From contig MWCL01000002.1 of the NCBI GenBank assembly GCA_002070025.1, forward strand, positions 1 through 64,000: a DNA stretch of 64,000 nt, read 5' to 3'. Source of the DNA: Spirochaetes bacterium ADurb.Bin215 (GTDB lineage: Bacteria > Spirochaetota > Spirochaetia > Treponematales > Treponemataceae). Positions 51,272 to 54,748 of the stretch are shown one piece after another. The notes beneath the pieces were generated by a model that saw nothing but the letters and a program-made list of their open reading frames with translations, was not told where the DNA came from and did not search any database. The translations under genes and the position numbers were made by a program. Position 1 is the first letter of the stretch; the number at the start of each line of letters is the position of its first letter.

Positions 51272-51305
51272 AATGCCTCCAATAAGTTAGTGCGTTTCAA
51301 CATTG

Positions 51306-51334
51306 ATAGTACTGAAAAGGCCGTCCTTGTTCAA
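51306..51334 (-). promoter_or_regulatory. oadGAB promoter
   Basis: Minus strand TTGAAC (51329-51334), 17-nt spacer, TACTAT (51306-51311). Its -35 box overlaps that of the divergent pgm promoter by four bases. Confidence 0.65.
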
Positions 51335-51355
51335 GTGGAAAGAATTGTCTATACT
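51327..51355 (+). promoter_or_regulatory. pgm promoter
   Basis: TTGTTC (51327-51332), 17-nt spacer, TATACT (51350-51355). The -35 shares bases with the minus-strand -35 of oadGAB inside TTGTTCAA. Confidence 0.65.
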
Positions 51356-51397
51356 GGAACTGATACCATAATTACCTGTGATTCTGAGGAGAAACCC

Positions 51398-53174: not shown

Positions 53175-53720
53175 ATGGGACAGTATGACTGGCTCCGCGC
53201 CGCTGACCCATCCGTAATCTTTACGGCGTTCGATACTGAAACCACCGGGCTTGATCCCAAGCAAAACCGGGTCATCGAGATCGGGGCGATACGCTTTGAC
53301 TCGTCCGGTGTAATGGCGCGGTTTTCCGTGCTCATACACCCGGAACGGCCCATGCCGGCGGAAGCATCACGCATAAACGGCATCACCGACGCCATGCTCG
53401 CGGGGAAACCCGTGGCGGCGGAAGTGCTGCCGGATTTTCTTTCTTTTATTGGAAACTCGGTATTGGTGGCGCACAACGCGCCGTTCGACATCAGCTTCAT
53501 GAACGAAGAACTGTCCCGGCTTATGCTGCCGCCGCTTTCAAACCGCGTGGTGGACACCCGCATTCTCGCAAAAGATGTCTTTCCCGGCCTCCCCCGCTAC
53601 GCACTCCAGGATCTCGCAAAACACTTCGGAATAGAAGCAATAGACGCCCACCGGGCTGAAGATGACGCGCGGGTCTGCTATGAGTTGTTCCGGGTGTGCA
53701 GGAAAAATCAGTCGCGATAG
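53175..53720 (+). CDS. DnaQ-family 3'-5' exonuclease
   Basis: 181 residues. Exonuclease motifs I to III are intact: FDTETTG (D20, E22), VLVAHNAPFDISFM and HRAEDDARVCYELF. It resembles the stand-alone epsilon subunit of DNA polymerase III and also PolC-type proofreading exonucleases. Spirochete replicases lack an internal proofreading site in some lineages, so this could be the proofreader, but a repair exonuclease is equally possible. It follows pgm after 4 nt and overlaps the convergent sigma-factor gene by 13 nt. Confidence 0.87.
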   Translation: MGQYDWLRAADPSVIFTAFDTETTGLDPKQNRVIEIGAIRFDSSGVMARFSVLIHPERPMPAEASRINGITDAMLAGKPVAAEVLPDFLSFIGNSVLVAHNAPFDISFMNEELSRLMLPPLSNRVVDTRILAKDVFPGLPRYALQDLAKHFGIEAIDAHRAEDDARVCYELFRVCRKNQSR

Positions 53721-54748
53721 AGAGCTTCGAGCAGGGTGTGATTGCGCAGTTTGCCAATCGCCTTGCCCTGTATCTGACGGACACGTTCCCGGGTAATACC
53801 GAGAAGCTTTCCGGTTTCTTCCAGGGTAAGCGGGCCCTTGTCCGTGAGACCGAACCTGAGTTTTATGATCTTCATTTCGCGCTCGGTGAGTTCATTGAGC
53901 ACATCTTCCATGGTATCCTGTAGCGTGGCGGTAAATACCAGCTCAAACGGTTCAACCAGCGTATCGTCGCTTATGAGATCGGCAAGCCGGGTATTGTTGT
54001 CGTCGTCAACACTCGTATCAAGGCTCGTGGTTTCCTGGGACAGATTCATGATTTCCTGAATACGCTCCGGCGGAATCTGAAGATATTCGGACAATTCCTC
54101 CGGACTCGGATCGCGGCCCAAGTCCTGGGTAAGCTGTTTAGCCACAAAGAAGCATTTACTGATGGTATTGAGCATGTGAATGGGAATGCGGATAATCCGT
54201 CCCTTGTCCGCAAGACTTTTTATAATCGCCTGACGGATCCACCAGGTACCATAGGTTGAAAAACGGCACCCCCGGGTGTAGTCAAACCGTTCCACGGCTT
54301 CTATAAGCCCGATATTGCCCTCGTCTATGAGATCCAGAAGCCCGAGGCCCCGATGCTGGTAATTCTTCGCGATTGAAACAACGAGGCGGAGATTCGCGGT
54401 TATCATGCGGTTTTTCAAGTCGCGGAGCATGGACTCAAGTTTTTCCGCTTCACTGACATAGGCCGGATCGGACAAACGTTCGCCGTAGGATTCTTTGAGC
54501 GATATGAGGGACAGCCGGATGTGCTGGATTTTTTGTCCAATCTCGCGTTCATCGTCAATTGACAGGAGCGGATAACGGGAAATTTGCTTGAGATACAACG
54601 CAAGCGGATCGACGTCATGATCCGGCACTTTCTTCTTTGCAGGAGTTCGCCGCACCGCCTTTTTGCCCGGGGATTTTTCCTTTTTTTTCCCGTTCGCAGT
54701 CTTTTCCGTTTTCATGTTGTCCTGTTCGGTCCGGGAAGAAATACTCAC
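53708..54748 (-). CDS. rpoS: RpoS/RpoD-type sigma-70 factor
   Basis: 346 residues from GTG 54748 (overlaps the preceding stop as GTGA); ATG 54715 with AGGA upstream is a good alternative (335 residues). After a lysine-rich leader come region 1.2 (DPLALYLKQISRYPLLSIDD), region 2 (LGLLDLIDEGNIGLIEAVER, RFSTYGTWWIRQAI), region 3 and region 4 (LTLEETGKLLGITRERVRQIQ). Its small size, lack of region 1.1 and an upstream LysM/M23 gene, as in nlpD-rpoS of gammaproteobacteria, support an RpoS-like alternative factor rather than the ~600-residue RpoD. Confidence 0.88.
   Translation of the reverse strand: MSISSRTEQDNMKTEKTANGKKKEKSPGKKAVRRTPAKKKVPDHDVDPLALYLKQISRYPLLSIDDEREIGQKIQHIRLSLISLKESYGERLSDPAYVSEAEKLESMLRDLKNRMITANLRLVVSIAKNYQHRGLGLLDLIDEGNIGLIEAVERFDYTRGCRFSTYGTWWIRQAIIKSLADKGRIIRIPIHMLNTISKCFFVAKQLTQDLGRDPSPEELSEYLQIPPERIQEIMNLSQETTSLDTSVDDDNNTRLADLISDDTLVEPFELVFTATLQDTMEDVLNELTEREMKIIKLRFGLTDKGPLTLEETGKLLGITRERVRQIQGKAIGKLRNHTLLEALYRD

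Follow-up and report, generated by a model that had tools for sequence, protein, structure and literature searches.

Background

The tetA/tetR genes of Tn10 are classical divergent operons, with back-to-back overlapping promoters in one short region, and in operons of this kind one of the genes usually encodes the shared regulator. In the Escherichia coli bidirectional promoters of Warman et al., two divergent RNAs arise from pseudo-symmetric DNA with a shared -10 element, with starts that commonly lie 18 bp from each other, 10 and 23 bp also being seen, and a single polymerase is expected to be bound at a time (PMC12825309). At the Pc/Pr pair of plasmid pLS20, divergent sigma-A-type promoters overlap such that, in the interpretation preferred by the authors, each -10 falls on the -35 of the opposite promoter; the polymerase itself is a potential regulator there, and the switch involves the regulator RcoLS20 and looping (PMC4207663).

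The oadG-pgm locus described here differs from classical divergent operons in that both genes are metabolic and the region between them encodes no regulator. It resembles the promoters of Warman et al. in its pseudo-symmetric DNA, its two expected divergent RNAs and the expectation of a single bound polymerase. However, it is the -35 boxes that are shared, each side has a -10 of its own and the predicted starts lie 63 bp apart, so that a shared symmetric -10 with starts about 10-23 bp apart was not found at this locus. With pLS20 it has in common overlapping divergent promoters at which the polymerase itself could be the regulator, but not the coincidence of each -10 with the opposite -35, and neither a regulator nor looping is known at oadG-pgm. 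A literature search, with most subscription journals outside its coverage, listed no account of this locus or of oad promoters in Treponema and, among the papers listed, none treating shared -35 geometry by that name.

Results

Gene content and promoter geometry of the locus

The window, by which we mean the whole stretch of 64,000 nt that was analysed, belongs to a draft assembly that comprises 2.6 Mb on 189 contigs. From an intergenic region of 126 bp (51272-51397, start codon to start codon), oadG, oadA and oadB run leftward and a four-domain phosphohexomutase, named pgm, runs rightward (Table 1). The gene assignments of the initial annotation were borne out by Pfam (OAD_gamma, PYC_OADA with Biotin_lipoyl, OAD_beta and PGM_PMM I-IV), and gamma, alpha and beta subunits were found encoded together, which identifies a Na+-translocating oxaloacetate decarboxylase operon. 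The flanking genes are first oadA and an exonuclease on either side, then oadB and a sigma-70-family factor; the latter (regions 1.2-4, 53708-54748, minus strand) is situated 2.4 kb from the promoter pair.

The alpha subunit, OadA, has a tandem pair of biotinyl domains (two Biotin_lipoyl stretches in Pfam). When its last 201 aa were used as query, near full-length matches were obtained in genera g1-g5 of the family, and matches to the last 90-100 aa only in the sister-family genomes G028, G031 and G034. Judging by these alignments, duplication of the biotin domain appears to be characteristic of the family.

Table 1 Coordinates of genes and putative promoter elements around the oadG-pgm intergenic region
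Feature	Position	Strand	Basis
oadB, beta subunit, 470 aa	47548..48960	-	Pfam OAD_beta 501 bits
oadA, alpha subunit, two biotinyl domains, 680 aa	48972..51014	-	Pfam HMGL-like, PYC_OADA, Biotin_lipoyl (2 stretches)
oadG, oxaloacetate decarboxylase gamma, 81 aa	51026..51271	-	Pfam OAD_gamma 52.8 bits
GGAGGC, likely ribosome-binding site of oadG	51275..51280	-	from sequence
Predicted oadG transcription start, 7 nt past -10, leader 28 nt	51299	-	inferred from geometry
-10 box of oadGAB promoter, TACTAT	51306..51311	-	complement of ATAGTA
CTTGTTCAAG, quasi-palindrome from two overlapping -35 boxes	51326..51335		invariant in 12/12 aligned genomes
-35 box of pgm promoter, TTGTTC	51327..51332	+	invariant in 12/12 aligned genomes
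-35 box of oadGAB promoter, TTGAAC	51329..51334	-	invariant in 12/12 aligned genomes
-10 box of pgm promoter, TATACT	51350..51355	+	TATAnT, same spacing, 12/12 genomes
Predicted pgm transcription start, 7 nt past -10, leader 36 nt	51362	+	inferred from geometry
GAGGAG, likely ribosome-binding site of pgm	51386..51391	+	from sequence
pgm, phosphohexomutase, 590 aa	51398..53170	+	Pfam PGM_PMM I-IV

Each strand of the intergenic region has a putative promoter with a 17-nt spacer (51333-51349 for pgm, 51312-51328 for oadGAB). Seen on the plus strand, the oadGAB -35 box is GTTCAA (51329-51334), and the bases GTTC (51329-51332) are common to both -35 boxes, making this, from sequence only, a divergent pair whose opposed core elements overlap. 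The two -10 boxes are separate, with 38 bases between them (51312-51349). CTTGTTCAAG has the symmetry CTTG-TT-CAAG. The coordinates, the spacers and the four-base overlap given in the initial annotation proved exact to the base, while its description of the -10 boxes as good is generous for TACTAT on the minus strand (4/6, versus 5/6 for TATACT on the plus strand).

We consider it very likely that the gap holds two back-to-back housekeeping-type promoters, whose -35 boxes overlap by four bases and each of which serves its own operon, with mild competition between them at most. These would be sigma-70-like promoters overlapping in TTGTTCAA, each driving its own operon. With the shared box filled by sigma region 4 of one polymerase, the promoters would, we infer, be occupied singly, and at ordinary initiation rates this would cause only mild competition at most and no reciprocal switching. 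The need of both strands for a -35 at this one position would explain the conservation of the decamer as well as its palindromic appearance.

Conservation of the shared box among relatives

Adjacent and divergent oadG and pgm genes were present in 9 of 12 same-genus genomes. The three genomes that did not show this arrangement were G005, where no convincing match to either gene was obtained; G006, with the two genes on different contigs; and G009, in which pgm is truncated by a contig end. CTTGTTCAAG was invariant in all nine adjacent same-genus loci and in G043, which belongs to another genus, and the same loci have TATAnT 17 nt past TTGTTC. The run of ten contiguous invariant columns over the nine same-genus genomes was equalled in length in 0 of 20000 column permutations, with a mean pairwise identity of ~47% in the surrounding DNA.

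The top-scoring site on each strand sat at the shared box in 10/10 genomes (the nine and G043), with minus-strand spacers ranging from 15 to 18. Of the two -10 boxes, that on the minus strand varies more (TATCTT in G008; a spacer of 18 nt in G011 and an alternative of 15 nt in G004). These deviations, and the three same-genus genomes that do not show the arrangement, count against the two-promoter reading. The comparison of the motif in related genomes, which the initial annotation had proposed as a check, thus found the decamer kept in 9/9 adjacent same-genus loci with both -10 boxes near register, and conserved -35/-10 modules on both strands argue for the two genuine promoters it had put forward. 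On these alignments, the overlapping two-promoter arrangement is conserved and is probably a real feature.

Independent loss and retention of promoter modules

G061 and G019 have retained both promoters, of which the rightward one now stands before a yhhN-family membrane protein gene that precedes pgm (Pfam YhhN, E = 1e-23, for the gene in G061). The same kind of insertion before pgm was seen in G083 and G077 (YhhN by Pfam in G083; Pfam was run on the YhhN-like genes of G061 and G083 only). G083 and G077 have both lost the rightward (plus) -10, yet their oadG promoter (TTGAAC-17-TATACT) and the full decamer are intact. A YhhN-like gene between oadG and pgm was found in four genomes of two genera (L194, L195, L196 and L065), and by position it takes the rightward promoter in two of the four.

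Loss on the other side was found in G006 (L011, L067), which has given up the oadG-pgm linkage: its pgm, away from oadG, has kept CCTTGTTCAAT and the module TTGTTC-17-TATACT, and no minus-strand -10 was present at the expected position upstream of it. The oadG gene of this genome is only 53% identical to that of the window, a TAA is reported in the matched stretch and the upstream region differs; this suggests replacement or decay.

For the sister family, 17 of 20 fetched stretches were read, the other three being cut short by contig ends. Adjacency outside the genus was read by eye from tables, so that counts are lower bounds: oadG and pgm are neighbours in at least six sister-family genomes (G034, G053, G284, G286, G277 and G226), and in these six the promoter-like sequence for pgm lies further downstream. 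Three of them (G284, G286 and G277) have kept TTGTTCAA as part of the oadG promoter but lack a correspondingly spaced plus -10. By this comparison the oadG-pgm neighbourhood is old, and only some lineages have the overlap.

Each putative -35/-10 module is thus shown by comparison to be conserved and to be lost or retained independently of its partner, and no other evidence speaks as strongly for both promoters being real. The locus provides a naturally replicated, clean case of core promoters sharing a -35, of which relatives have lost one side or the other.

Base constraints and probable origin of the overlap

Among non-overlapping oadG promoters, TTG was present in 24/26 genomes and TTGAA in 20/26, often with AA next. 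The pgm promoters that lie apart from oadG were less uniform, with TTG in 12/20 and 8 of the 20 top sites lacking it. In the 12/12 overlapping cases the sixth hexamer base was C on both strands, whereas it was C in only 8/26 oadG and 1/20 pgm non-overlapping promoters (p = 5e-5 and p = 6e-8, respectively; the genomes are related and these values overstate their independence). A sixth base C in each hexamer would be expected because the box on the opposite strand needs G, and the bias runs, as far as these sequences go, in the direction predicted by dual use.

The reverse complement of TTGAAYAA is TTRTTCAA, which with Y = C already contains a TTG-type -35 for the opposite direction. The overlap probably arose easily, since the oadG motif TTGAAYAA is one base from a usable opposite TTG-type -35. 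The decamer of G083 and G077, retained in full although the plus -10 is gone, speaks against pure dual use. A reading based purely on two -35 boxes would cover the surviving decamer, or TTGTTCAA, only through the AA that oadG itself has after its hexamer or through common descent.

Does polymerase exclusion couple the two operons?

RNA polymerase footprints extend from -40 to +20 or from -55 to +20, and on these two extents the predicted footprints of the promoters share 18 bp or 48 bp, respectively. One polymerase at a time would therefore be the likely rule, and it is plausible, given the predicted footprints, that simultaneous binding of RNA polymerase at both promoters is sterically unlikely. 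The initial annotation had gone further and expected transcription of the two operons to be mutually exclusive. As stated, this is unsupported: a promoter is blocked only for as long as a polymerase sits on it and can be bound again after that polymerase has left, so exclusive occupancy does not amount to exclusive expression.

An unlikely reading, if a conceivable one, is that the shared -35 has been selected as a competition switch, in which more transcription for Na+-pumping decarboxylation lowers hexose-phosphate interconversion by polymerase exclusion alone. The 18-48 bp shared by the predicted footprints would fit such a switch, as would the preservation of the overlap in 9/9 adjacent same-genus loci and in G043, but plain dual use of the bases predicts the same conservation. 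The E. coli bidirectional promoters bear on it in two ways: the opposite RNA is repressed only after one side has been improved or strongly activated, and none of the five promoters shows competition at basal activity, which is too low (PMC12825309). By analogy, and as both promoters here are mediocre, weak coupling at most would be expected. Furthermore, the partner has been replaced by yhhN in G061 and G019, and the promoters stand apart in other Treponemataceae and in sister-family genomes, which argues that coupling is not generally required. The broader idea of regulator-free coupling, in which a shared -35 preserved to the base throughout a spirochaete genus forces the polymerase to choose and activation of the sodium-pump operon or of the mutase damps the other, we regard as decidedly unlikely. 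The locus makes coupling through -35 sharing testable by single-base changes.

Is the shared box an operator?

That CTTGTTCAAG serves chiefly as an operator at which a dimeric regulator controls both operons, its likeness to -35 boxes being secondary, appears highly improbable. Such an operator would account for a quasi-palindrome, CTTG-TT-CAAG, with 10/10 bases invariant in 12 genomes, and for the persistence of the decamer in G083 and G077, where the plus -10 has gone. However, two opposed -35 boxes also account for the palindrome, which makes a separate operator unnecessary. The decamer occurs 11 times in the genome of the window versus 8 times for the reversed control, and the other 10 copies all lie within stop-free frames of at least 114 aa. 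The oadG genes elsewhere hold TTGAA, with TTGAAT and TTGAAA common, and mostly without the palindrome.

A search of the 12 same-genus genomes for CCTTGTTCAAG gave 34 matches, of which 30 were fetched and four, in G004, were left out; among the 30, eight were the oadG-pgm locus and six were one other conserved site. This site, the only other to recur among the 30, is an inverted repeat after a zinc-ribbon-like gene and was rejected as a regulon. With the decamers of the window's genome and the next genes on both sides of the promoter pair checked, neither regulon copies nor a linked regulator gene, as would mark a divergon, were found. The proposal that one regulator controls both operons is conceivable but unsupported, the palindrome being explained by the opposed -35 boxes and the other genomic copies lying in stop-free frames, and nothing at the locus calls for a regulator.

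The recurring site is itself of some interest. GCCTTGAACAAGGC is a conserved short inverted repeat found right after the stop codon of a small gene labelled by eye as zinc-ribbon-like (protein MGGASKNSRT...RRPKDFK), at six loci (L088, L089, L093, L094, L095 and L109) in five same-genus genomes plus one more, and it contains the promoter decamer by coincidence or as a short hairpin.

Promoter strength and the possibility of chance resemblance

Measured against the E. coli consensus, which may not be that of the host, the pgm promoter matches at 3/6 + 5/6 = 8/12 positions and the oadGAB promoter at 4/6 + 4/6 = 8/12. A stock promoter scan with a threshold of 9/12 consensus matches reported neither shared-box site, and over 13 kb it gave 11 promoter-like sites versus 7.1 expected. 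The best site it found nearby (51245, TTGACT-18-CATAAT, 10/12) was rejected, as it lies mostly inside the oadG coding sequence and its first hexamer is unconserved in relatives. Conservation can reveal Treponemataceae promoters that are missed by a consensus scanner.

Under spacing-aware score matrices (approximate E. coli values), each shared-box site ranked first on its own strand within the intergenic region. An alternative plus-strand site at 51345 (TTGTCT-16-CATAAT) scored 8.5 compared to 9.8 for the shared-box site and was absent from the top sites of relatives. Dinucleotide shuffles yielded an equally good divergent pair overlapping by at least 4 bases in 0/400 cases for the window region, and an equally good overlapping divergent pair in 1/3600 across nine same-genus genomes.

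It is scarcely credible that the hexamers merely resemble promoters by chance: the 8/12 matches, the scan counts and a published warning that most promoter-like boxes are inert (PMC11661796) would allow it, but the boxes are conserved with fixed spacing on both strands, the modules are lost and retained independently and the composite is unique to the locus. The last point comes from a search of the 12 same-genus genomes for both -10 frames, TTGNNCAA and the 17-nt spacers, with the reversed pattern as control. Seven exact matches were obtained, all at the oadG-pgm locus, versus two for the reversed control, and the five genomes without the exact composite include G008 and G011, in which the locus is present and the minus -10 deviates.
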